This document shows positions 6,538 through 32,860 of a stretch of DNA of 64,000 bases, piece by piece. Both the position numbers and the translations under genes were made by a program. The stretch comes from Candidatus Nomurabacteria bacterium. GTDB taxonomy: Bacteria > Patescibacteriota > Saccharimonadia > Saccharimonadales > Saccharimonadaceae. The stretch spans positions 1 to 64,000 of the forward strand of contig JAISHF010000003.1 in assembly GCA_031262695.1 (NCBI GenBank), written 5' to 3'. Positions within the stretch are counted from its first letter, which is position 1. Each line of letters opens with the position of its first letter. The notes under the pieces are model-generated. The model searched no databases. It was not told where the DNA came from and saw nothing but the letters and a program-made list of their open reading frames with translations.

Positions 6538-6554
6538 AATATTATTATACACCA

Positions 6555-10855: not shown

Positions 10856-11002
10856 CGGTTGATGCCGACCCCTGCTATTGACAGCGGCCGACACTTACAT
10901 TATAGCACACTTTACTCAAAAAAGCAATAGCATTGCGAGATTTGGTGGTTAAGCACAAGCGTGGTGGAGGTTTAGGGCTAGATTTGAGCGGGGTGGTAGC
11001 AC

Positions 11003-11515: not shown

Positions 11516-12306
11516 TGCGGGCGCTGCGGTGTAAGATTGCAAAGTTCGCGTTGGCTTTGGGACTAGTGTTGTTTGGTGCGACTTTTGCTAACGCTACACT
11601 GGCAAGCCAGCCGACTTATGCAGCATGTGCCGAAATGACCACCTTTTTGGGGCTAAAACCTTGGTGGTATGGGTTGCGCGATGAAAGCAGCGATAATTGT
11701 GGCCTCGTAAATGTGGCGACTAAAGTTGATGCAAGCGGCAACGTAACGACGGGGGCGGGCGGGAAGATGTCAATGGTTGATTTTGTCTGGAAAGTGGTCT
11801 TCAATGTGTTAGAAATCATCCTTGGACTGGTGGCTTATTCGGCGGTGTTGTTTGTGGTGCTTGGCGGGTTCAACATATTGTTCAGTAGTGGCGACCCTGG
11901 GAAAATCAGTAAGGGCAAGCTGATGGTGGCGCATGCTATAATCGGCGTAGTGGTGGCGCTGGTGGCGGGCGGATTTGTGCGGTTTATTAACGACTCGCTG
12001 ATTAGCACTGGCTCGGGTAAATATACGATAGACCCTGCGACTGGCGCCATAACTGGCTCGGGTGGTACGGCGGGCACTACTGATGATGCTTGGCTGGGCG
12101 CAATGGGCGGGTTCTTGAAACTGGCTGGTGTGGGTGCAATACTGATGGTGGCTTGGGGCGGAGTGAAGCTATCTATGTCATCAGGCGACCCTGCGGCGGC
12201 AGCAAAGGCGAAGAGTACGATTATTTTTGCGTTGATTGGGGCGGTAATTATGATTACGGCTGGGCTTATTGTGGACGCGGTAGTTGGTGTGGTGGGCGGC
12301 ACATAA
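11515..12306 (+). CDS. Double pilin-like protein, 263 aa
   Basis: A signal peptide-like N-terminus is followed by two copies of the pilin module in one chain. The first has VVLGGFNILFSSGDPGKIS and VAHAIIGVVVALVAGGF. The second has VAWGGVKLSMSSGDPAAAA and TIIFALIGAVIMITAGLIV. Each module is a helix, an SSGDP-Lys/Ala loop and a second helix, matching the single-module neighbours. The start at 11515 overlaps the previous stop (TAATG); a longer in-frame start at 11461 lies inside the previous gene and is rejected. A fused pilin could act as an adaptor or cap rather than a filament subunit (inference). Confidence 0.72.
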   Translation: MRALRCKIAKFALALGLVLFGATFANATLASQPTYAACAEMTTFLGLKPWWYGLRDESSDNCGLVNVATKVDASGNVTTGAGGKMSMVDFVWKVVFNVLEIILGLVAYSAVLFVVLGGFNILFSSGDPGKISKGKLMVAHAIIGVVVALVAGGFVRFINDSLISTGSGKYTIDPATGAITGSGGTAGTTDDAWLGAMGGFLKLAGVGAILMVAWGGVKLSMSSGDPAAAAKAKSTIIFALIGAVIMITAGLIVDAVVGVVGGT

Positions 12307-12315
12307 AGGAGGAGT

Positions 12316-12741
12316 ATGACGAAACAAATGCAAACAAAAGTTTTTGGCAGGTTGCGATTGGTGGCGACTGGGTTGTTGGCGGGGTTGGTGCTTTTAGGCA
12401 TGGCGGCAGCAAGTAGTGTTTTGACGGCACGGGATGCGGGAGCGGCAAGCAACGCTTGCGACTATTGTCAGGGCGAGAACTGCGAGATGCTAGGTTGCGG
12501 CGGCAAGTCTGGTGAGGCGGCAGTCGATGAAACGGGGCAAAATGTGCTGGACGGGATTGTTTGGTTTGGTGGGATAATCGCGGTGATTTTTATTGTAGTT
12601 GGTGGGATTCAGGTGGTGACGAGTGGGGGCGACCCCGCTAAGGCGAAAAGGGGACGCCACACAATGCTGTTTGCGGTGATTGGACTGATTATTGCGTTAC
12701 TTTCTACGGTTGTGGTTCAGGCGGTCGGCAACTTGTTTTAG
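12316..12741 (+). CDS. VirB2/TrbC-like pilin subunit 3, 141 aa
   Basis: Signal peptide (residues about 10-42, ending near DAGAAS), then a short Cys-rich stretch (CDYCQGENCEMLGC) and one pilin module: IIAVIFIVVGGIQVVTSGGD, loop PAKAKRGRH, MLFAVIGLIIALLSTVVVQ. The start ATG is backed by AAGGAGG 5 nt upstream. It follows the double pilin by 9 nt. The CxxC motif before the mature module suggests a disulfide or metal site in the exported domain. Confidence 0.75.
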   Translation: MTKQMQTKVFGRLRLVATGLLAGLVLLGMAAASSVLTARDAGAASNACDYCQGENCEMLGCGGKSGEAAVDETGQNVLDGIVWFGGIIAVIFIVVGGIQVVTSGGDPAKAKRGRHTMLFAVIGLIIALLSTVVVQAVGNLF

Positions 12742-12761
12742 GGCAAAATAGCAAAAGCCTC

Positions 12762-12789
12762 TTGACAATAAATTGGTGATTGTTATAAT
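12762..12789 (+). promoter_or_regulatory. Strong promoter of the 108-aa pilin
   Basis: TTGACA (12762-12767), 16-bp spacer, TATAAT (12784-12789). Together with an AAGGAG ribosome site and a strong terminator after the gene, this makes the 108-aa pilin an independent unit that is probably highly expressed. Confidence 0.85.
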
Positions 12790-12818
12790 AATAATATATT
12801 AGTATATAAGGAGAAAAA

Positions 12819-13145
12819 ATGATTGAAAAATTCATGGCAGCAGTTAGCTGGACAACACCGACTACAGGGGCAAATTCAAACTTAAACGACCCAGGCCAGT
12901 TGGCAACGATGGTGGTAGATGTTTTGACTTGGGCGATTGGCGTTTTGGCTATCGTGTTCATTGTCGTTGGCGGTATCAAATACGCTACCAGCGGTGGCGA
13001 AGAGAAAAAGGTCGCTAGCGCCAAGAACACGATTCTTTATGCGGTTATTGGTTTAGTGCTTGGCTTGCTTGCAAATACCATCATCAAATTGGTCTTGAGC
13101 GCGCTTGGTATCACTGGCACGGCATCGTTTGGCGCAATCCTTTAA
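12819..13145 (+). CDS. Probable major pilin, 108 aa (VirB2-like)
   Basis: Single pilin module with no classical signal peptide: VLTWAIGVLAIVFIVVGG, loop IKYATSGGEEKKVASAKN, then ILYAVIGLVLGLLANTIIK. It resembles the Mbov_0395-type pilin-like conjugal transfer proteins. Unlike its neighbours it has its own consensus promoter, an AAGGAG Shine-Dalgarno and a perfect terminator. By eye its codon choice is also less G-skewed than its neighbours, so I infer it is the abundant subunit and the others are minor components. Confidence 0.8.
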   Translation: MIEKFMAAVSWTTPTTGANSNLNDPGQLATMVVDVLTWAIGVLAIVFIVVGGIKYATSGGEEKKVASAKNTILYAVIGLVLGLLANTIIKLVLSALGITGTASFGAIL

Positions 13146-17702: not shown

Positions 17703-20700
17703 ATGGCGAAAGATATTCCGAGCACAGGCTATCGCGGGATTTATGGGGCTGAGGCGACGGGTAAAGACCCTGCGAATATTCGGGCGGCACAGACAAGTGC
17801 GGCGGATCATTTTGCGGCGGCGGAGAAGTCGGCGAGTGGGGCGGTGGCAAAAAATAATGATAGGACGACGAGCGGTAGTGCGGATATGGCGGAAAATGGT
17901 TTTACGCCGCGATACACTGGCGCAGGCGAGCCCGCACAAAAATCCCTTGCCTCACGAAACAGCCAGGGCGCTCGCACCCCTCTTGGCGCCGCTAACGCGT
18001 CACCAATTCACCCCGCATCGTTCGGCAAGGGACATTTTGCGCGAGCTCGCAAAAGCACGGGGTCAGGAGGTAAAAACCGCAAGCCGCTGTTTGCGATTGG
18101 GGGGCTGACGGGGCTGTTGGCGCTGATTATGTTTGCGACTTCTAGTTTGTTGCCGATACATTTGGTTGAGAATATGATTGGAATGAAAAATTCGTTTGGC
18201 ACGACGGCGGAGGTGCGGGGCACGCGGCTGATTCAGCGAGTGCTTGGTAAGGATAATACCAAAGCGCTGAATACTTTTAGCAAGCGGAATACTTTGTCTG
18301 CAAAACGGATTACTCAAATGAACCGCGGCTTGGAGGCGGAGGGGCTGCGGTTGCGGGCGGACGGCGACAATGTGATTTTACAGTCGGCGCTGGGCGCGGA
18401 CGGCAAGATTAATTTTGAAGCAGACGGCACAATGCGCTGGAACACGGCGGCGGTGAGCGAAGTGGAGTTTGCGGCGTTGATTGCGGAGCATCCGAATATT
18501 CGTAATGGGTTTAATAAGGGTGCACAGGGCATCACGGGGCGGACGAGCGGTTGGTATAATCGGGCAATGGCGTTCTTTTTGAACAAAAATGCCTTGACAC
18601 GGAACTTGTTTAAGGATTTTATTGCTAAGACCGAGGGCAACACGAGTTATCACGAGGCACAAGAACTGATTGCGACGGCTGAAAAAAAAGTGACAAAAAA
18701 TAATATAGATTTGGCGACGCAAGAGCGGACGACCGACCCAGAAACAGGTAAAACGACTGACAGCCTGAGCCAGAATGAGATTGGGCAAGATTTTCCAGCA
18801 GCAAAGGCGGCGATTGGTGCCGATATTCGGGCGCGGGCACTGCAAATAGCAGGGCGAGCGGGCGGGATTAGCACGGCGCTGACGGCGAGTTGTGCGGTGT
18901 TTTTGGCAGTTGGGGCGGCTTCGGCGGTGTTTGCAGCAATGGAAATGGCGAAAGGCTTGCAGGTAGTGGCGGCGTGGTTGGAGGCGGGGCAAAAAATGCA
19001 GGCGGGCGAGGGCGACGAAAGTTATTATGCGTTGGGTGATGCTTTGACAATACAGACGACAACGACAGCGTTTGACAAAGACGGCAACGAGATTGAACTG
19101 CATAACGGCGCACAAAAAAGCGCAACGGAGTCGGCGGGCTTGCAAAATGTCTTGGTGGGCGGCACATTTACGGCCGAGAACGACCAAAGTGCGTTGAAAT
19201 ACCATGCTGAAAAAGCCGTGGGCTATATGGGAATTACAGGCGGTTCGGTAGCGGGATGCTTGGCGGCGATGTTGGCGGGCGGGGTTATTGGCGCGGTCGC
19301 CGAAGCGTTCTCTATTGTGGTGTCGTTTGTGCCGATTGCGGGGCAGGCGTTTGCGATTGGTAAGTTGCTAGCAAAAGTAGCGGCTGATACAGCAACGCAA
19401 GCGGCGATTTCAGTGGCGATTGGTGCGGGTGTCGGGGCGCTGACGGCAATGCTGGCAAAGGGCTTGATTACGACAATTGCGACCGATGTGGAGGGTGAGG
19501 ATTTTGGCAACTTGCTGGCGAGTGTCGGCGGGCGATATATGTCGGGCGTGCATCAGGCGAATGGCGGCGTGGTAGCGACCGAGGAGCGGGCGCTGGCGTA
19601 TTATCGCGAGACGCAGGCGGTTTTGGCAAGACAGGCCGAGTCGGATCGTGCCGAGCGGAGCCCGTTTGATATAACCACCAAAAATACTTTTTTGGGAAGT
19701 TTGGCGTATAATATGAGTGGTTTTGCGGCGAGTAGTTCGCTATTTTCTAATTTGACAGGTTTGGCGTCGGCAGTGCAGGCATCTAGCCTGCCATTACAAT
19801 GGCGTGCGAGCGCAGATGTGGCAGGCGAGTTGGCATTTAAGGACGGGCTAGGCAACTGCCCACAACTATCGCAACTCTACCCTGAGGGGATTACCGAGGG
19901 CGAGGACGGCACAGTGCATACGGTAGCGTGCGATTTGTTTGGCAACCCGATTCGCACCAATGATTTGGAGGCGATGGAGTTGGACCCTGAATATGTTTTT
20001 TGGAAAACGGCCTTTACTTGCGACGGTAGCGAATGTTCGTTTGGCAAAAGTGGCGACGAAACGCAAACTTATAGCGGCACGCATTTTGATGGCACGGAAT
20101 GGACGCTGACTGGCAATGCGACGGTGGAGGTGGACGAAAATGGGCTAGAAAAAATTAACCCAAAAAGCGAGCTCGGCAAGATGATTGTTTATGGCGTAAA
20201 CCGTTCAACTGACCCTGGGGTGTTGGATTTGAATATTATGATGGCGGAGGACGACTCGGGACCGAGTTGGCTGGGCTGGGCGCCAGTAGTGGGCGAGATT
20301 CAGCAGGCGGTTTCGGCGGTCAACCAGAGTGAGGCGCTGGCTAGCGGTTGGGTAGATGGCAAGAATTATTGCAACGGCTGCACCGAAGAATGGGATACAA
20401 AATACCGCTACTTAAACCAATATATTGTGGACGATAATTTATATGAGGTGATGGGTGGCGTGGAGAAGAGTGCGACGGTGGCGTTCTTGGAAGAGGAAGT
20501 TTGGCCGACGATGGACCAGAGTGCGGAGGGGATTTTGGCGCGAAATATGGGCGTGTCAAAAGATTATGTGAGTTCTAGTTTGGCTTATGTGAGCGACTTA
20601 TTGCAGACGCCACAAAGCGAGGAGGCGCTGGTTGCGAGCGCGCCGAGTATTTATGCTACTTATTATAATAATAGACAAATCGGGCAATTAATGTTGCCTA

Positions 20701-20795
20701 AAAAAGATGCCACTTATGTGATGCTTGCAAAAATCCAAGAGCCAGCAAAATTGCCAGATTTACGCCGACGATTTAACGCGGAGGTGATGGCATGA
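17703..20795 (+). CDS. Large polytopic membrane protein, cassette A, 1030 aa
   Basis: Unknown family, paralogous along its length to the 1066-aa protein at 23816. Residues 1-125 are a low-complexity Ala/Gly/Ser N-terminus opening with GYRGIYGAEATGK. A transmembrane helix (about 128-150) ends in SSLLPIHLVEN. Further hydrophobic segments lie near 390-415, 500-540 and 560-590. The rest is a large soluble C-terminal part with paired cysteines (TCDGSECSF, YCNGC), suggesting extracytoplasmic disulfides. It ends in LRRRFNAEVMA. The promoter is TTGCAA (17667-17672), 17 bp, TATAAT (17690-17695), with the -10 only 7 nt before the ATG. It overlaps the hydrolase gene by 4 bp. Envelope secretion or attachment is the likely setting; the function is not known. 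Confidence 0.7.
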   Translation: MAKDIPSTGYRGIYGAEATGKDPANIRAAQTSAADHFAAAEKSASGAVAKNNDRTTSGSADMAENGFTPRYTGAGEPAQKSLASRNSQGARTPLGAANASPIHPASFGKGHFARARKSTGSGGKNRKPLFAIGGLTGLLALIMFATSSLLPIHLVENMIGMKNSFGTTAEVRGTRLIQRVLGKDNTKALNTFSKRNTLSAKRITQMNRGLEAEGLRLRADGDNVILQSALGADGKINFEADGTMRWNTAAVSEVEFAALIAEHPNIRNGFNKGAQGITGRTSGWYNRAMAFFLNKNALTRNLFKDFIAKTEGNTSYHEAQELIATAEKKVTKNNIDLATQERTTDPETGKTTDSLSQNEIGQDFPAAKAAIGADIRARALQIAGRAGGISTALTASCAVFLAVGAASAVFAAMEMAKGLQVVAAWLEAGQKMQAGEGDESYYALGDALTIQTTTTAFDKDGNEIELHNGAQKSATESAGLQNVLVGGTFTAENDQSALKYHAEKAVGYMGITGGSVAGCLAAMLAGGVIGAVAEAFSIVVSFVPIAGQAFAIGKLLAKVAADTATQAAISVAIGAGVGALTAMLAKGLITTIATDVEGEDFGNLLASVGGRYMSGVHQANGGVVATEERALAYYRETQAVLARQAESDRAERSPFDITTKNTFLGSLAYNMSGFAASSSLFSNLTGLASAVQASSLPLQWRASADVAGELAFKDGLGNCPQLSQLYPEGITEGEDGTVHTVACDLFGNPIRTNDLEAMELDPEYVFWKTAFTCDGSECSFGKSGDETQTYSGTHFDGTEWTLTGNATVEVDENGLEKINPKSELGKMIVYGVNRSTDPGVLDLNIMMAEDDSGPSWLGWAPVVGEIQQAVSAVNQSEALASGWVDGKNYCNGCTEEWDTKYRYLNQYIVDDNLYEVMGGVEKSATVAFLEEEVWPTMDQSAEGILARNMGVSKDYVSSSLAYVSDLLQTPQSEEALVASAPSIYATYYNNRQIGQLMLPKKDATYVMLAKIQEPAKLPDLRRRFNAEVMA

Positions 20796-22072
20796 AAAAG
20801 TGGTTAGCTGGGGCTGTAGGGTTGGTGTTTGTGATGGCAAACTTAGTGCCGGCGTCGGCGATAGCAACGCGGGACGAGGAACTTTGGAACGAGGCGGGGA
20901 TTTTGTTTTATGACCCTGACGATATGGCTGTGGAATGCGTGAGTATGACGCTCGGGCAGGCGACGGGCAGCGCAACGGCAGGATTAAGCGCACAGCAGGC
21001 AGCGTTTGTGGACCAATATCAGGGGTTGGCGTCGGCACTGAGTGTGCAATATGGTATTCCGTGGGAGGCAGTAATGGCGCAGGGGATTTTGGAAAGCGCA
21101 GCGGGGACGAGCAATTTTGCGCGGAACCGCAATAACTTTTTTGGGATTGGGGCATATGACACAAACCCGAATAATGCGCATAGTTTTGAGACACCCGAAG
21201 CGGGCTGGGAGGGCTATTATCGGTTTATCCGCGACAACGCCAATTATCGCAATAATGGCGTGTTTCAGGAGCCGACTATTACCAACCCGTATGCTTATAT
21301 TGCGGCGATTAAGGCGGCAGGGTATGCGACGAGCCCAATTTATGTGAGTAGTTTGACGCCGATTATTGCGGCGATTATTACACGAGCAAACGAGCAAGGC
21401 TGGAAGACTTCGGCGGAACTGGCGCGCGAGAACCCTGAGATGTTGAATGCCGCCGAGCAAAATGCAGCGGGGGCGAATGCTGGCTCGGAGGTGGCAAACT
21501 TTTTGACTTATTGTTCGGGCGTGAGTTTGACGGGCGATTATGCGACCGATTTACATAATACGATTTTGGAATTTTCGTGGCCGGGGTTGCGTTCGCACAA
21601 GGCGACTGACCCGAAGCCAGCATATTATAACGCCTTGGAAGGATTTGGATTTTTTGGTAGTAGGGACGCTTATATCAAGGCGGGGGCGTCGTGTGATGCG
21701 TTTGTGGCGACAGTAATGCGGGCAAGCGGTGCCGACCCTGAGTTCCCGTGCTGCGGAACTTCTAACCAGATGCGCTACCTGAAGAATAGTGGCAAATATA
21801 CTGAGATTAAGAATTTGCGAAATGTTTCTAATTTGCAAGACGGTGATATATTTATATTAAATGGGCATATTATGATTTTTGTGAACGAGGACAGCAAGCC
21901 GAAGGTGGCGCATGCGAGCCGCGACACGAGTACTTCGTGCAAAAAATATACAGGGATGCTGACGACGCAACACGGCGGGCGGATTTCGTCTTGCGCGCGG
22001 ACGGGCGAGCGGGGCAATGTGTATTTTAGCGACCATCGCGGGCCATATCAGATTTTTCGGAGGAACGGGTGA
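20792..22072 (+). CDS. Exported peptidoglycan hydrolase, cassette A
   Basis: Two-domain wall enzyme of 426 aa with a signal peptide (1-23). The first domain (about 68-205) is a FlgJ-like glucosaminidase: QYGIPWEAVMAQGILESAAG with the candidate catalytic Glu at 101, then NNFFGIGAYD. The second domain (about 250-426) looks like an NlpC/P60 or CHAP-type cysteine peptidase: GASCDAFVATVMR (C301) and LQDGDIFILNGHIMIFV (H359). It could cut both glycan and peptide bonds, a VirB1-like role that opens the wall for the neighbouring membrane protein. It overlaps both neighbours by 4 bp. Paralogous to 27013-28323. Confidence 0.82.
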   Translation: MKKWLAGAVGLVFVMANLVPASAIATRDEELWNEAGILFYDPDDMAVECVSMTLGQATGSATAGLSAQQAAFVDQYQGLASALSVQYGIPWEAVMAQGILESAAGTSNFARNRNNFFGIGAYDTNPNNAHSFETPEAGWEGYYRFIRDNANYRNNGVFQEPTITNPYAYIAAIKAAGYATSPIYVSSLTPIIAAIITRANEQGWKTSAELARENPEMLNAAEQNAAGANAGSEVANFLTYCSGVSLTGDYATDLHNTILEFSWPGLRSHKATDPKPAYYNALEGFGFFGSRDAYIKAGASCDAFVATVMRASGADPEFPCCGTSNQMRYLKNSGKYTEIKNLRNVSNLQDGDIFILNGHIMIFVNEDSKPKVAHASRDTSTSCKKYTGMLTTQHGGRISSCARTGERGNVYFSDHRGPYQIFRRNG

Positions 22073-22722
22073 GGGCGTGGTTTTTGAGTTTAGGCAAGTT
22101 TAGGTGGTGGTTGGTGCTTGGGGTCGTGGCGGTTTTGGCGTTGCTAGGTGTAATGTTTTATCGGCTGGTGTGGTCGGCAAGTTTAACGATTACGGCGGCG
22201 CCGTATGATGTGGCGATTACAGTCAACGGCACGACAGTAGAGAATAAAAAGACGCGGCGGTGGCGGGCGGGGGAGTATCTGGTGCGATTGGAACGAGAAG
22301 GGTTTGACGCCGAGGAGCATTTAGTGGTTTTGAAGGGCGGCGACGCGACAGAATTGGTTTATGCGTTGTTGCCGAGCGATGGTGATTATCAGTGGTATTT
22401 GGATAATGCGGAGGACGGGATGATTTTAGACACGGTAATGAGCGGGCTGGCGGACGCCGAGTCAGAGAGCCTATTGGAGCGGTTCCCGATTTTGGAGGAG
22501 TTGCCGTATCGGACGAATTTTTATGAGTTAGTTTTGTTTGCGTTGCCGAGCTCGGAGAGCGCGCTTTTGACGCTGGAACTAACGATTTTTGAAGTGCCAC
22601 GGGATGATATTTATGCGACGCCAGAGAAGTTTGCTTTATATTCGGCGGAGTGTCGGGCGTGGCTTTTGGAGCAGGGGCTGGGTGAGGGTGAGTTTGAGAT
22701 TGTAAGCGGAAATGGTGTCTAA
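22069..22722 (+). CDS. PEGA-domain membrane protein, cassette A
   Basis: 217 aa, starting at GTG inside the hydrolase stop (GTGA overlap). One transmembrane helix (about 12-34) is followed by a PEGA-like beta domain (SLTITAAPYDVAITVNGTTV, LVRLEREGFDAEEHLVVL), as found in surface-associated proteins. A C-terminal region of about 120 residues has no recognised fold. The paralogue is at 28323. Probably anchored with its domain outside, next to the hydrolase product. Confidence 0.72.
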   Translation: MRAWFLSLGKFRWWLVLGVVAVLALLGVMFYRLVWSASLTITAAPYDVAITVNGTTVENKKTRRWRAGEYLVRLEREGFDAEEHLVVLKGGDATELVYALLPSDGDYQWYLDNAEDGMILDTVMSGLADAESESLLERFPILEELPYRTNFYELVLFALPSSESALLTLELTIFEVPRDDIYATPEKFALYSAECRAWLLEQGLGEGEFEIVSGNGV

Positions 22723-22725
22723 CTA

Positions 22726-22782
22726 TTGACTTTTAGACATAAGTGTGATACAATGTAGTTAATCCCGCCGAGGTCGGGGCGG
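22726..22782 (+). promoter_or_regulatory. Promoter and leader hairpin of the lipoprotein gene
   Basis: TTGACT (22726-22731), 17 bp, TACAAT (22749-22754). The roughly 80-nt leader contains CCGCC/GGCGG (about 22765-22782). This shows the lipoprotein is not simply read through from cassette A. Confidence 0.7.
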
Positions 22783-22841
22783 TTGACTATACCTAAAAAT
22801 AGTTTTGTATCTTAAAATGATTATGTAAAGGAGGCCTCTTT

Positions 22842-23729
22842 ATGAAAAAGATGGCGATTTTATTGACTCTTGTGATGGCACTTTTTGCCTTGACGGCGTG
22901 CGGCAAGGAGGCCGTGATATCTGACGTGTCCGAGGCGATATACTCAACAACCGAGGCGACAACCGAGGCTGCGACAGCAGTGGCAGCTGAGGCGGAATTT
23001 GAGGCAACTGAAACGGCACCGATTTTACAGCCCGATTGGGCGGCATTTGACAGCCCGATAGCAGTGGCGGATTTCGCAAAAGATTTGCCGAATGGGTTTG
23101 AGCTAATAAGACAGACCGACTCAATGTTTGCCTTTAAAAACCAGACATTAGAACTCACTATACTGTATAATTTGGACGTAGGTGAAGCGATAGGCGACGA
23201 TTTTTTCTGCGCGACTTCTGTGATCCTTGAAGATTTGCCTCGTAATGAAACTGCACGGTGTTTATCTTATAGTTTTTCTGGGCAAAGCGTTTGCGCCTAT
23301 ATGGACGACGGCGAAAAGCATGGGCTTTCGCACGATTTGGCAAGTTTTTTGCTAGGTTTGATGCGTGAGGTAGACAGCAATGTGGCTAGTTTGCTCGGAT
23401 CCGAGGAGGATCAGCAGGTAATTTGCGAGCAGTTAGGCGATAGTAATGCGATACTTCGCTATGTTGATGTCTCTGTTTTTGGTAGCGAACTTATGTTTGA
23501 TACAGTGCGCTTAGCCTCTAACGAAGAAGGTCGTATAAATGTATGGCTTCGTGATGGCAGGTGCCATGTTGGGTTCTACGTTGGTGAGCGGTCGGAGCAA
23601 TACGATCTTGAGTATGAAGACGCTCAATTCAGCTATCTGCCTCTAACGCCGAAACTGGACCCGCGGATATTGCAGGCTGTGCCGTTTGTAGTAGAAAATG
23701 GGCACGTCTTGGAGGACTCGTTGTCATAA
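22842..23729 (+). CDS. Predicted lipoprotein, 295 aa
   Basis: Signal sequence with a lipobox (LFALTAC at 16-20 of the chain), so it should be lipid-anchored outside the membrane. A Glu/Ala/Thr-rich linker (VSEAIYSTTEATTEAATAV) is followed by a soluble domain of about 240 residues with no recognised family. AAAGGAGG lies upstream of the ATG. Its own promoter and terminator, and a more balanced codon use than the G-rich cassette genes around it, mark it as an independent unit lodged between the two cassettes; it may be a later insertion. Confidence 0.75.
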   Translation: MKKMAILLTLVMALFALTACGKEAVISDVSEAIYSTTEATTEAATAVAAEAEFEATETAPILQPDWAAFDSPIAVADFAKDLPNGFELIRQTDSMFAFKNQTLELTILYNLDVGEAIGDDFFCATSVILEDLPRNETARCLSYSFSGQSVCAYMDDGEKHGLSHDLASFLLGLMREVDSNVASLLGSEEDQQVICEQLGDSNAILRYVDVSVFGSELMFDTVRLASNEEGRINVWLRDGRCHVGFYVGERSEQYDLEYEDAQFSYLPLTPKLDPRILQAVPFVVENGHVLEDSLS

Positions 23730-23748
23730 GGAGCAAGACATAATCACA

Positions 23749-23782
23749 TTAGGCACCTCTTGCGAGGTGCCTAATTATTTTT
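23749..23782 (+). terminator. Intrinsic terminator after the lipoprotein gene
   Basis: TTAGGCACCTC (23749-23759) pairs perfectly with GAGGTGCCTAA (23764-23774), followed by a T-rich run. Confidence 0.9.
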
Positions 23783-23809
23783 GTAAAAAAGATTTGTGTG
23801 TTATTATAT
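23781..23809 (+). promoter_or_regulatory. Promoter of cassette B
   Basis: TTGTAA (23781-23786), 17 bp, TTATAT (23804-23809), with the -10 ending exactly 6 nt before the ATG at 23816. The -35 overlaps the terminator T-run of the lipoprotein gene. Confidence 0.6.
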
Positions 23810-23815
23810 ATATAG

Positions 23816-26800
23816 ATGGCGAGGTTGTTTAAGTGGAGGTTTGCCGAAGCTGTGGCCCCGAAAAAGGGCTATGGCGGGATTTATGGTGCCGAGGCGGCGG
23901 GCAAGGGTTTTGGCGCATCCAAGATGATAAAGCCAGAACGGGCGGCGGGTGATTTTGCGGATGCCGAAAAATCAGCGACGGCGCGAGGGCAAGAAAATAC
24001 TGAGAGTGCCGATGGACAACGAACGAATAGCCGAGCGACAAGTGAAAGCACTGATGCGGCAGAAAATGGTGGGGCGGTTCATACGCCGCGCTATGGCGGT
24101 GCGGCAGACAAGAACGCCGTGGCGGCAGCGGCAAGTGCGGCGCGGGGTGATGTTTTGGGCGCGTTAAAAAACGCCTATAAAAGTCGTACCAGTAATAATG
24201 ACGGTAGCAGTAAAAAGCCCCTAATCGCAACAGGTATAGTAACGGCACTGGTGGCACTCTTTTTTGGCAGCGTTTCTAGCTTGCTGCCAGTTCACCTACT
24301 AGAAAATCTGACCGACTTGAAAAACTCTTTGCAAACGACAAATTTTCAGCGGGGCAATAAGTTAGTGCGAGCGACTGCCAAGGCGAATAAATACAAGGCC
24401 GACCCTGACAACTTGTTTGCCAAGCGGACTGGCGTGAGCAAAAAACGGGCAGCTCAAATGAATAAAGGGTTTGAGGGGACAGGGTTGAAGTTTGAGGTAG
24501 ATCCTGAAACAAATAAGTATGTGCTAATGAATGATGACGGCACGAGAATTGCCGATGACGATGCGCTAAGGGCGCGGTTTGAAAGCGACGCGGATTTTCG
24601 CACAAAATGGAACGAGGGGGCGAAGATTATCACGGGCAGCACGGGCGGCTGGTATAAAAGTGCGATGGCAGATGTCTTGCGGAATAATTTTTTGACGCGC
24701 AATTTGTTTAAGAATTTTATCGCTGAGCAAGATGCGGCGGAAGCGACTCGGGCGGCGCAAAGTAAGATTGCGGAGAATTCGGATCAGCTAAAGGCGAGAG
24801 CAACAGAGGCTAATTATGACGACGTGACCGACAAAACGGATGACAAAGGAAACGTAATAACCGACGACGAGGGGAATGTGCAAAAAAATGCAAGGACCTC
24901 TGTGGAGCAAGGCGGTGGCAAAGCGCAGATTATTGCAACGATTAACGCAAAGGCGAAAGCGATAGCCAGTGGCGTAGGGGGGACGGCTAATTTGGTTTGC
25001 GGGGTAACTATCGCAATAGCGGCGGTGTCTGCAACTTATGCAATAGCACAGGCGATGGAAGGGCTGGTGGTCGTGTCTAGCTGGTTTGAGGCGGGGCAAA
25101 AAATGATGGTCGGCACCGACGAAGACGACGATAGCTACCATGCTTTTGGCGATATGCTGAACACGGCAACGGTGACTACCACCTTTGAGGGCGACGAGGA
25201 GATTGAACTGCATGACGGTGAAAAACTGACCGCGACAGAATCTATGGGGGCGCAGGCAATTCTGGTCGGCGGTATTGCAGCAAATATAGGAGCAGAAGAC
25301 CCAAGCGTCGGCAAATTTAGTATGGAAGGCATGACAGCAGGCATTAATATTGCAGGCGGCTCGCTAAAAGCCTGCATTGCAGCGCAATTTGTATCTGCGG
25401 CAGTCAATGTGGGTATTTTGGTAGCAGAGATGGTATTGGCTGTTTTCACGGGTGGCGTGTCGGCCATCGGCAAGGTACTGGTTGATGAGCTCGGAGGCGT
25501 CTTGTTTGGTGTGTTAACGTCGGTTGCAGTCAGCATGGCGATTAGTGGTATAGCTAGCGTGATCGCCTCTATATTTGTAAAGAAATTGGCGATTGATGTG
25601 TTTGGCGAAGATTTTGGCAATTTGCTAGTATCCTATGGCACAAGATATTACAACAAAGCGCATCAAGGAAACGGCGGTGTGGCACTGAGCTTTGATAGCG
25701 CACTGGCATTTTATAAAGAGCAGCAAACGGTACTCGCCTATAATGCGGAAGTAGACCGTGCAACCCATAGCCCCTTTGATATTACGAATAATAACACTTT
25801 TCTTGGGAAGCTCGCGGGGAACTTGGCCGTGGCAACGTCGGGGCGGGGGAGTTCTGTTTTGGGTCAGATCGGTACATTGGGCAGTTTTGCTAGCGCAATG
25901 AAAGCCCCAATTACGCTAAATGCGAGTGCGGCAACAGAATTAGAGTTTCGTGAGCAGATTAACTGGGACTCGTCGCTAGGCGATGACGGCAATATGTGTG
26001 TCGGGCTATCTACGATTGGAGCGGTTGGCGATATGTTCTGTAACCCGTTGCGTGGTAGCGACTTTTCTACTGTAGAGACTGACCCTGAGGAGATTTTTTG
26101 GAAGGTCGCTTACACCTGTACAAAATATGGCAACATCCCTCAAGCCGTGGGCCAATGCTCCTTTGCTGGCAAGCAGGGTGTTGTGTCATATGCTGAATAT
26201 GCCTTGGCACAGGAACGGGGCGACCCATTCGCAGAAAGTGATGCTGGCAAGTATTATGCCTTTGTTTTTGACACAGACCCAGATACTGGGCTAGAAGTAG
26301 TTAACCAGAACTCAGACCTCGCCAGAATGATCAAGTGGGGCGTCAACCGCAAGAGTGACCCCGGGACGACAGATATCAATATTATGCAAGAAGGGCAGGT
26401 CTCGACTAGTGCAACCTGGCTAGATTCGCTGCTGGGTGCAATACCGATTGTAGGTGATGTGATAGATATTGCAAGTGCGGTTGGGCAGAATGAAATTTAT
26501 GAGTCTGGTTGGGCGGACGGCAGCGCGTTTTGCGTAGGGTGCGACAGTGCCGCTGGAGGCGAAGGCGAATGGAATGAGGGCTATAGCGGAAACACCAAAT
26601 GGAATTCGGTATATAAATATTTAGACCAATATATTATAGACAATAATCTGTATGAAAATATGGAGGCAATTGACACAAGCCCTGTGTCGGCATATATAGA
26701 CGATGTATTATGGCCTGAGATGGATAAGAGTTACGAGGGAGTGCTAGCGGCGAATATGGGTGTGCCAAAAGAATGGGTGGTGAGTAGCTTGGCGTATGCT

Positions 26801-27016
26801 AATGACCTAAAAGTGGCACCACGTGAGGCGGAGGAATTAGTGGCGAGCGCGCCAAATATTTATGCGACTTATTATGGCGGGTTAAATTATGATACTTTGG
26901 AAGTGCCTGAGCGGGATGATTCTTATGGCGTGCTTGCCTTACGGACGGCGAAAGAGACGACAAAAGTTGCTGGGGTGGAGTGGCGACGACGCTTTAATGC
27001 GGAGGCGACAGCGTGA
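23816..27016 (+). CDS. Large polytopic membrane protein, cassette B, 1066 aa
   Basis: Paralogue of the 1030-aa protein at 17703. Shared blocks include GYGGIYGAEAAGK, KPLIATGIVTALVALFFGSV (helix at about 136-158), SSLLPVHLLEN, LTRNLFKNFIAE, EDFGNLL, SPFDITNNNTFLG, the KYLDQYIIDNNLYE block and the terminal WRRRFNAEATA. The N-terminal 130 residues are low complexity and diverged, and the insert around TDKTDDKGNVITDDEGN is specific to this copy. Cysteine pairs in the C-terminal half are conserved in position. By eye the codon use is less G-rich than in cassette A, suggesting an old duplication or separate acquisition. Overlaps the downstream hydrolase by 4 bp. Confidence 0.7.
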   Translation: MARLFKWRFAEAVAPKKGYGGIYGAEAAGKGFGASKMIKPERAAGDFADAEKSATARGQENTESADGQRTNSRATSESTDAAENGGAVHTPRYGGAADKNAVAAAASAARGDVLGALKNAYKSRTSNNDGSSKKPLIATGIVTALVALFFGSVSSLLPVHLLENLTDLKNSLQTTNFQRGNKLVRATAKANKYKADPDNLFAKRTGVSKKRAAQMNKGFEGTGLKFEVDPETNKYVLMNDDGTRIADDDALRARFESDADFRTKWNEGAKIITGSTGGWYKSAMADVLRNNFLTRNLFKNFIAEQDAAEATRAAQSKIAENSDQLKARATEANYDDVTDKTDDKGNVITDDEGNVQKNARTSVEQGGGKAQIIATINAKAKAIASGVGGTANLVCGVTIAIAAVSATYAIAQAMEGLVVVSSWFEAGQKMMVGTDEDDDSYHAFGDMLNTATVTTTFEGDEEIELHDGEKLTATESMGAQAILVGGIAANIGAEDPSVGKFSMEGMTAGINIAGGSLKACIAAQFVSAAVNVGILVAEMVLAVFTGGVSAIGKVLVDELGGVLFGVLTSVAVSMAISGIASVIASIFVKKLAIDVFGEDFGNLLVSYGTRYYNKAHQGNGGVALSFDSALAFYKEQQTVLAYNAEVDRATHSPFDITNNNTFLGKLAGNLAVATSGRGSSVLGQIGTLGSFASAMKAPITLNASAATELEFREQINWDSSLGDDGNMCVGLSTIGAVGDMFCNPLRGSDFSTVETDPEEIFWKVAYTCTKYGNIPQAVGQCSFAGKQGVVSYAEYALAQERGDPFAESDAGKYYAFVFDTDPDTGLEVVNQNSDLARMIKWGVNRKSDPGTTDINIMQEGQVSTSATWLDSLLGAIPIVGDVIDIASAVGQNEIYESGWADGSAFCVGCDSAAGGEGEWNEGYSGNTKWNSVYKYLDQYIIDNNLYENMEAIDTSPVSAYIDDVLWPEMDKSYEGVLAANMGVPKEWVVSSLAYANDLKVAPREAEELVASAPNIYATYYGGLNYDTLEVPERDDSYGVLALRTAKETTKVAGVEWRRRFNAEATA

Positions 27017-28323
27017 TTCAGCAAGTAGCAAAAAGAATAGCGATAGGAAAAGTGACTACTAAGCGACTGGGCTATTGGCTAGTGATACTGGCTGGGTTAT
27101 GCGGGGCTTTTGTTCCACAAGCGGCTTTTGCACTAAATGCCTCGCAAGAGATGCGCTGGGCGGATTATGATATTTTATTTTATGACCCGGGCGATACTGG
27201 CGCTTGCATGGATGCTTCCGCAGGAGCAGCAGGAGTATCGCCGGTTTCGGGGGCGGCGTATAATCGGCTGAAGGATGCGGTGAGACAATATGGCGAGTAT
27301 GCGATGGAAATGCAGCGGCAATATGGCGTGCCGTGGGAGGTGGTGTTTGCGCAGATGCAAAAGGAGTCAGGGACTGGCACGACGGGCTGGGCGGTTATGG
27401 GCGCGACCAACAACTGGCTCGGCATCACTGGTTCGGGTGATATGGGGTCTTTTGTTTCGCCACCGAATAGCGACTACCCGAATGGGCGAAATTGGGCCAA
27501 ATACAGCAGTATTGAGGCGAGTATTTCGGCATGGGCAGGGCCAAAAGTGCTGCGAAACGGCTATTATGATGACGCTTTCCCATATTTGGACCCGAGCAAC
27601 TATAATTTGGAGGCGTTTTTGCGGGAGATGATTTCACACTATGCGCCGAGCGACGACGGTAATGATGAGGCGGCCTATGTGGCGAGCGTGCTGAGTTTTA
27701 TCAACGGGCCGATTAAAGAAGTGCGGGAGGAGATGGGCTGGCCGAGTTCGGCGGAACTAGCACGCAATGAGAAAATCCCAGTCGGCGGACAGAACCCAGT
27801 TGGCAGCACAACGGTAGCGCCAAGTTATGGTGGGGTTGCGACTTGCCTTGGTGCTGGTTCGGGCAGTATTACTGAGGCGGCGATTGCGTTTTCGTGGCCG
27901 GGGATTGGTAGCCACGATAAAACTGATCCACAGCCGGCTTATCGTGAGGCGATTAGCACGGTGGGGCTGAGTAATATGGGCGAGCCATTTAGTTATGGTG
28001 CGAGTTGTGATGTGTTTGTGGCGACCGTTTATCGGATGACGGTGGACCCAGAATTCTACTGTTGTGGCACATCATATCAACGAAACTACTTGGTCAACAG
28101 CCCCCTTTATACAGAAATTGAGAATCTCGGCAATACTTCTAATCTGCAGTCGGGCGATATTTTTGTGCATGATGGGCATATTATGTTGTTTGTGATTGAT
28201 GGTGGCGAGGGAATGATGGCGCATGCGTCGCTTAAAGAGCGGACAGGCGAGCGGGGTGGCATGCCATTTTTCAGCGACAAGAATGGCACCTATCGGATAT
28301 TCCGCTATACGGGAGGGGTATAA
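27013..28323 (+). CDS. Exported peptidoglycan hydrolase, cassette B
   Basis: 436 aa, GTG start in a GTGA overlap. N-terminal signal/anchor helix (about 20-40), then LNASQEMRWADYDILFYDPGD (the ILFYDP element is shared with cassette A). A glucosaminidase domain has QYGVPWEVVFAQMQKESG (candidate Glu 118) and NNWLGI. A C-terminal cysteine-peptidase-like domain has GASCDVFVATV and LQSGDIFVHDGHIMLFV. The order of domains matches the cassette A enzyme, but the glucosaminidase part is clearly diverged, so the two may prefer different walls, for example own and host (inference). Confidence 0.82.
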   Translation: MIQQVAKRIAIGKVTTKRLGYWLVILAGLCGAFVPQAAFALNASQEMRWADYDILFYDPGDTGACMDASAGAAGVSPVSGAAYNRLKDAVRQYGEYAMEMQRQYGVPWEVVFAQMQKESGTGTTGWAVMGATNNWLGITGSGDMGSFVSPPNSDYPNGRNWAKYSSIEASISAWAGPKVLRNGYYDDAFPYLDPSNYNLEAFLREMISHYAPSDDGNDEAAYVASVLSFINGPIKEVREEMGWPSSAELARNEKIPVGGQNPVGSTTVAPSYGGVATCLGAGSGSITEAAIAFSWPGIGSHDKTDPQPAYREAISTVGLSNMGEPFSYGASCDVFVATVYRMTVDPEFYCCGTSYQRNYLVNSPLYTEIENLGNTSNLQSGDIFVHDGHIMLFVIDGGEGMMAHASLKERTGERGGMPFFSDKNGTYRIFRYTGGV

Positions 28324-28949
28324 TGCAGGTTGATAGACAGCGGATTGGCTTAATTATCGGCGTACTAGCTGGTGTGATGGTACTCGGTATGGTGGTGATT
28401 TTTGCAGTGCGAAGCTTGGTCTATTCAGCTAAATTACAGTTGACGATTGCGCCGACTGGCGCGACGGTTATCTTAGATGGCAAGCAAATCAAGGCTGAGA
28501 ACCAGGATATTAAGCCGGGGGAGCATACTCTGCGAGTAGAACATGATGGTTTTATTGCCGAAGAGCAGCAGTTTAGTGTGGCAAAAAATGAGACTTATAG
28601 TGTGCTGATTGCTCTTGTGCCAGAAGACGATAATGCGGATTATTACCTTTACAATGAGCGGGATCAGATTATTCGCGACGGCAAGATTACGCAGAGGCAA
28701 GATCAGGCGATGCGTGAGGCTTATGAGTCGGACCCGATTATGAAAATCTTGCCTTATACCGATATGTCTTCGGGGGTGACTTTTGTGGTGGAGGCGTCGT
28801 ATAATAACGGAATTGAGCTTTTAATTCGCTTAAATACCTGTTCGGACGAGGCGGCGGAGATTTATAAGAATAAGGCACTATTGTGGATTGCGGGGCAAGG
28901 TTTCCGGCCAGAGAATTACCCAATTAAATATATGACGCTGTGCGATTAG
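28323..28949 (+). CDS. PEGA-domain membrane protein, cassette B
   Basis: 208 aa. One transmembrane helix (about 10-32), then a PEGA repeat (LQLTIAPTGATVILDGKQI, GEHTLRVEHDGFIAEEQQF). The C-terminal half (about 100-208) resembles that of the cassette A paralogue in length. It starts at TAATG directly on the hydrolase stop. Last gene of cassette B, convergent with recF. Confidence 0.74.
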   Translation: MQVDRQRIGLIIGVLAGVMVLGMVVIFAVRSLVYSAKLQLTIAPTGATVILDGKQIKAENQDIKPGEHTLRVEHDGFIAEEQQFSVAKNETYSVLIALVPEDDNADYYLYNERDQIIRDGKITQRQDQAMREAYESDPIMKILPYTDMSSGVTFVVEASYNNGIELLIRLNTCSDEAAEIYKNKALLWIAGQGFRPENYPIKYMTLCD

Positions 28950-28968: not shown

Positions 28969-29988
28969 TTAAAGCGTAATGAGAGGATTAAGTTTGGGTG
29001 GTGGGGCGACAGCAGTAATGATGATTTGATGGTCGCGGAAGTTAGACATCAGGGCAGTTTGACGCTTGTCGTCTAACTCGGAAAAGACGTCGTCTAGCAA
29101 GATAATCGGCGAAACGCCTTTGGCGTTAGTAAAGGCGCTGGCTTCAATGAATTTTTCAGCCAAGATAATCGTGCGGTTTTCGCCGCGCGAGGCAGTTTGG
29201 CCGGCCATTTTGCCGTTAAAAATAAACAGGAAATCGTCGCGGTGTGGTCCAAAAGTCGTAGAACCAACAATACTGTCGCGTTCAAAATTACCTGTTAATA
29301 TAGCGAGATATTCCTGTTCATCAATTACACGACCCGAATATTGCAGTTCAACCTTGGCTAGGGTGTCGGAAATTGTATTGTAAGTGTCGCTAATTTTTTG
29401 GTTAATTTGGCTAGCACCATAAGTGCGGAGTTTAAGAATATTAGAGCCATATTTGGCGAGTAGACAATCCCAAGAATAAACGCTTTCGGTCGTGGCGAAG
29501 CCAGATTTAAGCAGTTTATTGCGTTGCGTCATGGCTTTTTTGTAGCCGGAAATAGTGGCCGCATAGTTAGTGTTAAGAAGTCCAAAAAAACGGTCAAAAT
29601 ATTCGCGGCGAGCATTCGGGGAGTTGTGGATCAAATTGAGATCATCTGGCTCAAAAAGCACGGTAGGGTAGCGATGTTCGGTTTTGAGTTTTTTAGAAGT
29701 TTCGCCATTTATTTTGAAAGCCTTATCTGTTAAACTGATGATTACTCTTGGAGTAAGCCCGTCGGTTTTTTGGATTTCGGCGAACATGTTCGGTTTTCCG
29801 TTTTTTATTAATTCAATATCTTTTGACTTGAAGCTCGTGCCGTTCAAAAGTAAGTAGACGGCTTCTAAAATTGAGGTTTTGCCAGTGCCGTTTTTACCGA
29901 CAATGAGCGAAACGCCGTCAGTAAAGTCGGCCGCAAACTCGTCGTGCGAGCGAAAATTCTTTAATAGGACTGATTTTACGATTTGCAC
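28969..29988 (-). CDS. recF: Recombination protein RecF
   Basis: SMC-like ATPase that helps load RecA at gaps. Walker A GKNGTGKTSILEAVY near residue 32, the signature region and Walker B with VSPIILLDDVFSELDDKRQ near the C-terminus. At 339 aa it is slightly shorter than the usual 360. It begins 3 nt after the dnaN stop, so dnaN-recF are co-transcribed. An 8-bp inverted repeat (TTACGCTT/AAGCGTAA, 28963-28979) overlaps its stop codon. Confidence 0.95.
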   Translation of the reverse strand: MQIVKSVLLKNFRSHDEFAADFTDGVSLIVGKNGTGKTSILEAVYLLLNGTSFKSKDIELIKNGKPNMFAEIQKTDGLTPRVIISLTDKAFKINGETSKKLKTEHRYPTVLFEPDDLNLIHNSPNARREYFDRFFGLLNTNYAATISGYKKAMTQRNKLLKSGFATTESVYSWDCLLAKYGSNILKLRTYGASQINQKISDTYNTISDTLAKVELQYSGRVIDEQEYLAILTGNFERDSIVGSTTFGPHRDDFLFIFNGKMAGQTASRGENRTIILAEKFIEASAFTNAKGVSPIILLDDVFSELDDKRQTALMSNFRDHQIIITAVAPPPKLNPLITL

Positions 29989-29991
29989 TAT

Positions 29992-31083
29992 TTAGGCCTT
30001 TCGTGGCATTACAATATAAACCAGGCTGGACGAATCGTTGCCGTGAATAATCAGTTTGTCGTCAGAAAAATCCAAGTTGACTTCGGGGGCTTCAAAGACA
30101 TTGAGTGCGTCAAGCAAAAAACGGATATTGAAGGCCATGCTAATGTCGGTGCCGCTGACGGCAGCCGCCATTTCAGAGGAATTAGAGCCAAGCTCACTCT
30201 CCACAGCAATAACAGAAAGTTGCTTGTTTTTACCGCTAGTTTTAAGAATGACGGCATTATCGGCGACACGAGCAAAAACTTGGGCGACTTTAAGTAGGCG
30301 GATGAGTTCGTCGCGGTCCACTACGGCAGTTTCAGCACCCGTAGCGGCGATGAGTTGGCGATAATCTGGATAACTACCAGAAATGAGATTGCTGGTGATT
30401 TCAGTTTGTTCGCCAATCAAAAATTGGATTTGCGCTTCGCCGATTTTGATAGTTAGGTCGCCATCCTCGGCAGCACTAAGCACTTCGGTAATAGCGGCAG
30501 TTGGCACAATTACACGGAGGTCGTCGTTGAATTTTGGCAGCAATTCCGCCTCGGCAAGGCGAAAGCCGTCGGTGGCAACAACAAAAAGTTGCTTATTAAA
30601 CGAATTAAAGCAGACACCAGTAAGAGCCGGGCGAGAAAAATCGTTGCTTGTAGCGCTAATAACTTGTTGTAAGGTATGGCGAAAATCGGCGACCGACAGG
30701 TTGATAGTGAGGGATTTTGCTTCGGGGTTAATAACCTCAGGGAAATCTTCGGCATCTACTCCGTTAAAAGTGGCAGAAAAACCTTTGCCTGAAACTTTAA
30801 GTTTAGTGCCTGTCGTTTCTAGGCTCAGCTCAGTATTTGGGAGGTTGTTAATAAATTCAGCAAGAGGCTTGGCTGGCACAGTGATGACACCGTTTTGTTT
30901 AACAGTTGTCGGGATAGTTTCTTCGCTGGCAAGTTCAAGGTTATTTGCGATAATCGTAAGTTTATCTTTTTCAGCGCGAAGAAGGACATTATTGAGGATT
31001 GGTAGTTGGTTGCGTGAATTGGCGATTCGCGAAATGTTGTTCAAAACTTTTGCCAATTGGTTCTTATTAATTAATAGGTGCAT
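29992..31083 (-). CDS. dnaN: DNA polymerase III beta sliding clamp
   Basis: Ring-shaped processivity clamp of 363 aa with the three-fold repeated clamp fold. Recognisable parts are MHLLINKNQLAKVLNNISRI at the start and the terminal SSLVYIVMPRKA. It lies between dnaA and recF on the minus strand in the classical bacterial order. The 258-bp gap to dnaA carries DnaA-box-like sequences. Confidence 0.97.
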   Translation of the reverse strand: MHLLINKNQLAKVLNNISRIANSRNQLPILNNVLLRAEKDKLTIIANNLELASEETIPTTVKQNGVITVPAKPLAEFINNLPNTELSLETTGTKLKVSGKGFSATFNGVDAEDFPEVINPEAKSLTINLSVADFRHTLQQVISATSNDFSRPALTGVCFNSFNKQLFVVATDGFRLAEAELLPKFNDDLRVIVPTAAITEVLSAAEDGDLTIKIGEAQIQFLIGEQTEITSNLISGSYPDYRQLIAATGAETAVVDRDELIRLLKVAQVFARVADNAVILKTSGKNKQLSVIAVESELGSNSSEMAAAVSGTDISMAFNIRFLLDALNVFEAPEVNLDFSDDKLIIHGNDSSSLVYIVMPRKA

Positions 31084-31341
31084 TTTGTGCCTTTCTTATT
31101 ATAAAATTATTATTACTATTAGGGTTGTGGATTGTGTGGAAAAGACGGTTAATTTCAGATGAGGGCGGACTGTGGGTAAGTGTGGGGGTAGCGGTATTGT
31201 GGTTGTGGGTAAGTCGCTGACGGGCTCGGCTTAGACTGAATGGTTGTGTAAAAATATCGGACTTATCCGCCAAGAAACCTTGGTAAATTCTGCGATAGTA
31301 GCCCAAACTCCACAGGGTTTTCCACAGGACTTTTAGGTAGC
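31084..31341. promoter_or_regulatory. dnaA-dnaN intergenic region with DnaA-box-like sites
   Basis: Candidate boxes (consensus TTWTNCACA): TGTGGAAAA at 31135-31143 (reverse), TGTGGGTAA at 31171-31179 and 31204-31212 (reverse), TTATCCGCC at 31263-31271, AACTCCACA at 31306-31314 and TTTTCCACA at 31318-31326. An AT-rich stretch (31092-31120) lies next to dnaN. This is a plausible part of oriC. Confidence 0.6.
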
Positions 31342-32703
31342 TCATGCGACGCAGACCTCCTGAATGCTGGCGATTTGGTCGCGAAGGGTGGTGTCGGTGG
31401 CGAGGTTTTTGGTGATTTTTTGGATGGAACTAATGGCGGTGGTGTGGTCTTTGCGTTTGAGGGCGCGGGCGATTTGCGGATAAGAGAGGGAGAGTTCGGT
31501 TTTCATGAGATACATGGCGATTTGGCGCGGGATGAGAATGTGTTTTTCGCGGCTTTCGCTGGAAAGTTCGGTGAGGGTGAGGTGGAAGTAGTTGGCGGTG
31601 GCTTTAAGGATATTGTCCGGGGTGGTGCGAGGGCGGCTGGCGGCAGAGTCTTGGAGTTCGGCTTCTAGTTTGGCGAGCGAGAAGCGGGGACCGAGGCTCA
31701 TTTGGAGGAGGCCGGCTTTATTGAGGGCGCCTTCTAGTTCGCGGATGTGGGAAGTGCATTTTTTGGCGATAAATTCAATGATTTCGGGGGCGAGGTTAAG
31801 GCCGCTAGATTCGGCTTTGGCGTTAAGGATGGCGCAGCGAGTCTCAAAACTTGGCGGTTGGACGGCAAGAATGATACCTTGCTCACAGCGAGAAACGAGG
31901 CGGTCGGCGAGGTCGGCGATGCGGGTTGGCGGGCGGTCGGAGGCGAGGATGATTTGCTTGTTGTTTTGTTGGAGTTCGTTAAAGGTGTGGAAAAATTCTA
32001 TCTGGCTTTCTTTTTTACCCTCCAAAAACTGGATGTCGTCAATAATGAGGACGTCGTTGGTGCGGTATTTTTCGGTGAAACCGGTGAGTTTTTTCTGGAT
32101 ACTGGCGATGAAGTCTTTGTAGAAAGTTTCCATAGAGATATATAGTATGCGGTAGTCGGGGTGCTGGGCGAGGATTTCGTTGCCGACGGCTTGGATGAGG
32201 TGGGTTTTGCCAAGACCGACGCCGCCATGGATGTAGAGAGGGTTGTATTTAGTGCCTGGTTCGTCGGCGACTCCGCGGCAAGCGGCGAAAGCGAGGCTAT
32301 TGTTATCGCTGACGACGAAATTATTAAAAGTATATTTGGTGTTGAGGTTGGTGTTGTGGGCTTTGGCGCCAGTTGGCTGGGTGCCAATGGATTTGGTGAG
32401 ATCTAGCTCGCCGAGATTGACGGTGGTTTTTTTGCGGCGGCGCTCAATTTTTTGCTCGTCAGAGGTGCCGGCGATGATGTAGTCTATGATTTCGGGGTTA
32501 AGATTGGCGGCTGTGAGGGCAGTTTTGAGGGTGCTAGCGTGGTTGCCTTGTAGGCGGTCAATAGTAAATTGGTTGGGGGCGCTGAGTGTTAGGCGGCCAG
32601 CCTCAAAGTTGACGAAATTGAGATTGCGAAAAAATGACTTAAAGACGATGCCCTCTAAGTTGCGTTCCAAGTGGCCTTTGACGGCCTGCCATTGTTCCTC
32701 CAT
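31342..32703 (-). CDS. dnaA: Chromosomal replication initiator DnaA
   Basis: Initiator ATPase that melts the origin. Domain I (about 1-80), a linker, then the AAA+ core with Walker A GGVGLGKTHL and Walker B VLIIDDIQFLEGKKE. The C-terminal DNA-binding domain has KDHTTAISSIQKI, the box-binding signature. I start at MEEQWQAVKG (453 aa). TATACT (32712-32717) lies 8 nt upstream, so a longer in-frame start (32739) would be upstream of the promoter. The -35 position is occupied by a DnaA box (32732-32740), a layout that implies autoregulation. Confidence 0.97.
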   Translation of the reverse strand: MEEQWQAVKGHLERNLEGIVFKSFFRNLNFVNFEAGRLTLSAPNQFTIDRLQGNHASTLKTALTAANLNPEIIDYIIAGTSDEQKIERRRKKTTVNLGELDLTKSIGTQPTGAKAHNTNLNTKYTFNNFVVSDNNSLAFAACRGVADEPGTKYNPLYIHGGVGLGKTHLIQAVGNEILAQHPDYRILYISMETFYKDFIASIQKKLTGFTEKYRTNDVLIIDDIQFLEGKKESQIEFFHTFNELQQNNKQIILASDRPPTRIADLADRLVSRCEQGIILAVQPPSFETRCAILNAKAESSGLNLAPEIIEFIAKKCTSHIRELEGALNKAGLLQMSLGPRFSLAKLEAELQDSAASRPRTTPDNILKATANYFHLTLTELSSESREKHILIPRQIAMYLMKTELSLSYPQIARALKRKDHTTAISSIQKITKNLATDTTLRDQIASIQEVCVA

Positions 32704-32731
32704 ATAGGAATAGTATAGCATAGATTGGGAG

Positions 32732-32860
32732 TTTTCCACAGGGTTGCGAGATTTTTTTTATGTTTTGTAAGTATTGTGTTAGGTGATAGGGGTGGAGTTT
32801 TCCACAGATTTGGAGTTCTTGATAAAAGGCTGTGGAAAACTACTTGCTTTTTGTGGAAAA
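32732..32860. promoter_or_regulatory. DnaA-box cluster between dnaA and rpmH
   Basis: Four identical boxes: TTTTCCACA at 32732-32740 and 32798-32806, and its reverse complement TGTGGAAAA at 32831-32839 and 32852-32860. The outer boxes overlap the -35 region of dnaA and the spacer of the rpmH promoter. The inverted pair arrangement and the dnaA/rpmH location fit a bacterial origin or DnaA-regulated promoter pair. Confidence 0.75.

Follow-up and report, generated by a model that had tools for sequence, protein, structure and literature searches.

Two neighboring cassettes of the same three genes, each encoding a giant membrane protein, a hydrolase, and a PEGA protein, adjoin recF-dnaN-dnaA in the 652 kb genome of a Candidatus Nomurabacteria bacterium (17703–22722 and 23816–28949 of the window, the whole 64,000-nucleotide stretch that was analyzed). 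What do these cassettes do, and why are there two of them? The first-pass annotation had proposed a wall-penetrating surface machine kept in two versions. The surface assignment, the wall opening, and the two diverged versions withstood our analysis; what had not been recognized is the T4SS wall module, which became apparent from the virB4-linked gene order in relatives. On the basis of this order, each cassette very probably represents an envelope/wall module of the known T4SS of Patescibacteria (Saccharimonadia). The cassettes are not a free-standing machine.

Two Collinear, Paralogous Cassettes

The six ORFs of the two cassettes were confirmed (Table 1), with overlaps of 4 bp at 20792–20795, 22069–22072, and 27013–27016, and of 1 bp at 28323, in agreement with the same gene order and the 1–4 bp overlaps described in the first-pass annotation. 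In blastp comparisons of cassette A with cassette B, the giants matched along their length (36% identity, E 5e-168), as had been noted, and the RRRFNAE motif reported as common to both is indeed present near the C-terminus. The hydrolases showed 35% identity (E 8e-59) and the PEGA proteins 30% identity over the matched part (E 5e-16). Judged from these alignments, the cassette copies are beyond doubt true paralogues. Against orthologues in two other genomes (G002 and G003), the giant and hydrolase genes gave dN/dS values of ~0.12–0.21, with dS near saturation; these values indicate that both genes look maintained in both copies. The lipoprotein gene between the cassettes is fast-evolving, and its weak relatives in G003 (tblastn E 3.6e-8 in L023 and 2.4e-4 in L073) are located upstream of giants.

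Table 1. Positions, strands, and basis of assignment of the cassette genes and neighboring features in the window.
Coordinates	Strand	Feature	Basis
7577..10894	-	TrbL/VirB6-type T4SS membrane protein, 1105 aa, one of three in the genome	leave-one-out family HMM E 1.5e-126
11036..13145	+	T4SS pilin (VirB2-like) array, five PF18895 domains in four ORFs	Pfam
17703..20795	+	Giant copy A, T4SS-associated membrane protein, 1030 aa	ORF; virB4-linked in relatives
20792..22072	+	Hydrolase A: signal/TM, GH73 glucosaminidase, C-terminal Cys-His peptidase-like (CHAP/ELLD-like) domain; VirB1 position	Pfam, motifs
22069..22722	+	PEGA-like bitopic protein A	one TM; PEGA 0.0016 (below cut-off); family HMM 1.6e-55
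22842..23729	+	Lipoprotein between cassettes, LTAC lipobox	sequence; tblastn
23816..27016	+	Giant copy B, T4SS-associated membrane protein, 1066 aa	ORF, gene maps, tree
27013..28323	+	Hydrolase B: GH73 glucosaminidase and Cys-His peptidase-like domain; VirB1 position	Pfam, motifs
28323..28949	+	PEGA bitopic protein B	PEGA E 9.3e-8; moderate-confidence model
28969..32739	-	recF, dnaN, dnaA	named from sequence and gene order alone

Gene Order in Relatives Links the Cassette to virB4

Searches of relatives with the giant returned matches directly downstream of VirB4. Gene maps of 20 fetched stretches, annotated with family HMMs derived from the same loci, revealed the order TrbL-VirB3-TrsD-VirB4-giant-hydrolase-PEGA; recF, dnaN, and dnaA usually come next, on the opposite strand. 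The virB4-giant-hydrolase-PEGA order was found in eight relatives (G010, G012, G013, G014, G025, G031, and G005, and G007 with one extra ORF), and the recF-dnaN-dnaA neighborhood is common to the window cassettes and the T4SS loci of the relatives. The VirB4 family HMM matched PrgJ of pCF10 (E 8e-50).

We conducted a census of 147 genomes from the class Saccharimonadia and detected the giant in 82 and VirB4 in 136. In 49 of the 77 genomes with positions listed for both, the giant gene shares the strand of virB4 and starts <1.5 kb downstream of it; those departing from this linkage belong mostly to one genus, g2, where the block has moved. Within the window's family, 77 of the 83 sampled genomes carry the giant, with five matches elsewhere in the class. 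This near confinement of the giant as modeled implies either that the component is specific to the family or that its counterparts elsewhere have diverged beyond detection. Homologues of the giant without hydrolase and PEGA partners, which the first-pass annotation had named as counterevidence to its reading, do exist (e.g., L051, L060, L077–L079), and the trio is hence not obligatory. In genus g2 (L077, L078, L079), giants are found beside 790–842-aa proteins, without hydrolase or PEGA genes, and some are in tandem.

The giant contains ~4–5 hydrophobic spans (132–163, 386–412, and two or three between 519 and 592) and a C-terminal part of ~470 residues with conserved cysteines. The charge pattern flanking the first span is contradictory as to topology. 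Among the giants of relatives, 4 of 18 carry a C-terminal Peptidase_M23 domain and 1 of 18 a CHAP domain, tails that place the C-terminal end outside the membrane in those five proteins. The family comprises 19 members in the fetched loci and gave no match in Pfam, NCBIfam, or PDB sequences, including the Pfam TrbL models, and giants A and B likewise had no Pfam match; within these searches, the earlier statement that the giants fit no family holds. By hhalign, no link was detected to the TrbL family (probability 0.8%) or to PrgH (0.1%). AlphaFold prediction from three sequences (window A, window B, and L073) yielded a pLDDT of 30. A tblastn search of plasmids and a scan of viral contigs with the giant gave no match, and a single-sequence scan of genome contigs recovered one named relative, Candidatus Saccharibacteria MAG Th196P3bin118. 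Our first guess that the giant is VirB6 was dropped, because the TrbL matches belong to a separate gene upstream of virB4; matches to the TrbL_3 Pfam model were weak or stop-ridden only. The giant is best called a putative virB4-linked T4SS component, whose membership of the locus is established.

A Predicted Domain Replacement in the VirB1-Position Hydrolase

Both hydrolases contain a Pfam Glucosaminidase domain (PF01832; E 3.7e-22 in A and 1.9e-10 in B), in which the GH73-motif glutamate is kept (LES/KES), and, in the C-terminal half, a Cys...His peptidase-like domain marked by GASCD and GHIM motifs. The glucosaminidase plus cysteine-peptidase-like architecture proposed earlier was thereby confirmed in both copies. 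Hydrolase A additionally matched PF25309 (1.9e-5, Pfam). Exactly two GH73 domains are encoded in the window genome, both in the cassettes.

In relatives, the same gene presents a different enzyme, with Phage_lysozyme2 in 7 of the 11 members of the hydrolase family. The family HMM matched PrgK, which is VirB1 of pCF10, in its lysozyme region (E 1.4e-14; hhalign probability 97%), and these profile matches show the hydrolase of the relatives to be a homologue of this VirB1 wall hydrolase. The window organism and G002 have GH73 instead of lysozyme in both copies, with the N-terminal motif and the C-terminal Cys-His domain kept. By domain content, this is a catalytic-domain replacement, GH73 for lysozyme, in a predicted VirB1-position protein. 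The window hydrolases are VirB1-like through their position and shared flanking parts, while their catalytic domain is GH73, unlike the PrgK-type lysozyme. A weak lysozyme match, together with the division of the 11 members into 7 + 4, leads us to infer a hydrolase of the lysozyme type in a congener, G001. Two of the 11 relatives' hydrolases contain an additional GDSL-like lipase/acylhydrolase domain; these are probably L053:6858–8582 and L050:9985–11895, as judged from GDSI motifs in the alignment.

The PEGA protein consists of one TM and a PEGA-type beta domain, modeled with moderate confidence (pLDDT 67). The earlier designation as a PEGA-domain membrane protein proved clear for copy B (9e-8) and marginal for copy A (0.0016). 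A further claim, that the glycan-cutting domain had diverged most, is correct within the hydrolase, where copies A and B share 37% identity in the glucosaminidase domain and 55% in the peptidase domain, but not across the cassette: the PEGA proteins share 23–27% identity outside the membrane span, lower than either hydrolase domain. A fold search with the PEGA model found no VirB8 among the top matches listed (best E 2.6e-3), and hhalign detected no link to PrgL. In the literature searched, no paper paired Patescibacteria with "PEGA domain". A 485-aa PEGA protein is also encoded near another TrbL-type gene of the window's genome (L048:9820–11277).

Scattered T4SS Genes and the History of the Duplication

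The T4SS is scattered in the window genome. Its single VirB4 of this clade, an ATPase of the monoderm type (G000:C4:74819–76612), lies in a pilB-virB4-trsD-virB3 group at C4:73.1–78.3 kb, 46 kb from the cassettes; virB3 and trsD adjoin virB4 and were assigned from position and protein type, without a direct profile match to PrgI. The TrbL/VirB6-type protein at 7577–10894 had no Pfam match of its own, and two further TrbL-type proteins are encoded at C4:89.6 kb and C5:126 kb, such that the genome holds one VirB4, two giants, and three TrbL/VirB6-type proteins. Two unlinked proteins carry a TraG-D_C coupling-protein domain. The pilin array, in which one ORF has two domains, is divergent from the TrbL/VirB6-type gene, and a tyrosine recombinase (Phage_integrase; 5629–6555, minus strand) lies just beyond this block.

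In the phylogenetic tree, the A (17703) and B (23816) types form separate clades (A-like, 100/100; B, 100/99), and this topology makes the parting of the two cassettes older than the divergence of the congeners. In related genera, the block adjoins both virB4 and recF, and in the window genus it has stayed next to recF, so the unlinked state looks derived. The comparison shows that the block was separated from virB4 and duplicated in the window's genus. In G014, the whole block has undergone its own independent tandem duplication and is still attached to VirB4, and the giant occupies two or more places in approximately 31 of 77 genomes. The recF-proximal giants in G001 and G003 (L062:9862–13173 and L023) look mosaic, with the first 160 residues B-like and the rest A-like, which suggests exchange or gene conversion between cassettes.

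Comparison with Known Systems

Patescibacteria T4SSs, their pilin arrays, and their location near dnaA have been published, as have essential "peptidase and lysozyme homologues" just downstream of virB4 (PMC12102498); the main text of that study makes no mention of PEGA, duplication, or glucosaminidase. The T4SS is essential for the epibiotic growth of Southlakia epibionticum, the one species tested (PMC10633639). The S. epibionticum "peptidase" is likely a member of the giant family, based on its position and M23 tail. A 2025 survey reported that, in most classes, linkage between VirB1 and VirB4 is poor. The window genome shares with the Patescibacteria/Saccharimonadia T4SS the VirB2-like pilin array, TrbL/VirB6, VirB3, TrsD, and VirB4 and the proximity to dnaA, a locus type that then has the "peptidase" and lysozyme after VirB4. 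Conversely, the T4SS of this genome is scattered, its wall module is duplicated and located apart from virB4, GH73 takes the place of lysozyme, and the giants lack the M23/CHAP tail of some relatives.

In pCF10, an MPF_FATA conjugation system, the PrgK (VirB1) gene comes right after VirB4, as in the hydrolase locus of the relatives, and the lysozyme domain of PrgK is homologous to that of the relatives' hydrolase. PrgK also carries LytM and CHAP domains (PMC12857230), the counterparts of which in relatives are the M23 tail of the giant and the C-terminus of the hydrolase. PrgK is one protein, whereas in the present system two proteins divide these functions between them, with GH73 as the enzyme of the window versions. 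In Tn916, the gene order Orf16-Orf15-Orf14-Orf13 corresponds to VirB4-VirB6-VirB1-VirB8. This order and the protein types (for the Tn916 protein classes, see PMC12857230) are similar to those of the cassette, a likeness by description, as sequences were compared with pCF10 only. In those comparisons, hhalign detected no relationship of the giant or the PEGA protein with VirB6 or VirB8 of pCF10.

Alternative Readings and Proposed Function

The points against a T4SS module are the 46 kb between the cassettes and virB4, the giants without partners, and the GH73 domain in place of a PrgK-type lysozyme. The lack of linkage in the window genome and the solitary giants, together with purifying selection on both diverged versions, would also suit a stand-alone wall-penetrating machine that works apart from the T4SS and comes in two versions, one directed at the bacterium's own wall and the other at that of the host. 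We consider this highly improbable in view of the virB4 linkage in 49 of the 77 genomes with both genes, the PrgK homology of the relatives' hydrolases, and the apparently derived nature of the unlinked state, since related genera retain the block next to virB4 and recF. A housekeeping autolysin complex for the growth or division of the cell's own wall, derived from a T4SS only historically, would account for the cassettes holding the genome's only two GH73 domains and adjoining recF-dnaN-dnaA; this explanation also carries very little probability, given the T4SS context in relatives and the report that another species needs the genes at this position in order to grow epibiotically (PMC12102498).

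The giant could alternatively be a divergent VirB6, which would make the cassette a VirB6-VirB1-VirB8 series as in Tn916. Its polytopic nature, its place between virB4 and a VirB1-type hydrolase, and the single-TM protein that follows would fit. Nevertheless, relatives encode a separate TrbL/VirB6-type protein upstream of virB4, the giant has no hhalign similarity to the TrbL family or PrgH, and the best matches of the PEGA model are not VirB8 folds, which renders this assignment unlikely.

As a wall module of the T4SS, the cassette might function as follows. The giant would be embedded in the membrane, next to the VirB4/VirB6 channel or encircling it, and would expose its large C-terminal part on the outside; it may line or support the passage through the wall. 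The hydrolase would cut glycan and peptide bonds of peptidoglycan, opening the wall for the channel, and the PEGA protein may anchor or position the hydrolase or the channel in the wall. A single VirB4 is set against two giants and three TrbL/VirB6-type proteins; from these gene counts, we infer that the two modules serve one motor, onto which alternative outer components may be fitted, perhaps to suit different walls, hosts, or stages. The assignment of one cassette to the bacterium's own wall and the other to the host wall is speculation. A more far-reaching proposal, which we advance tentatively and regard as rather doubtful, is that the giants represent a core element of the T4SS found only in Patescibacteria and distinct from both VirB6 and VirB8, forming a membrane channel extension whose tip in relatives bears a wall peptidase, and that two GH73 wall modules on one VirB4 motor breach two kinds of wall.

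These findings bear on how ultrasmall parasitic bacteria pass material through the host wall. Across one Saccharimonadia family, a VirB1-type hydrolase adjoins virB4 together with an unnamed giant partner, and the doubled, enzyme-swapped module provides a concrete test case for one motor with alternative wall-opening parts.
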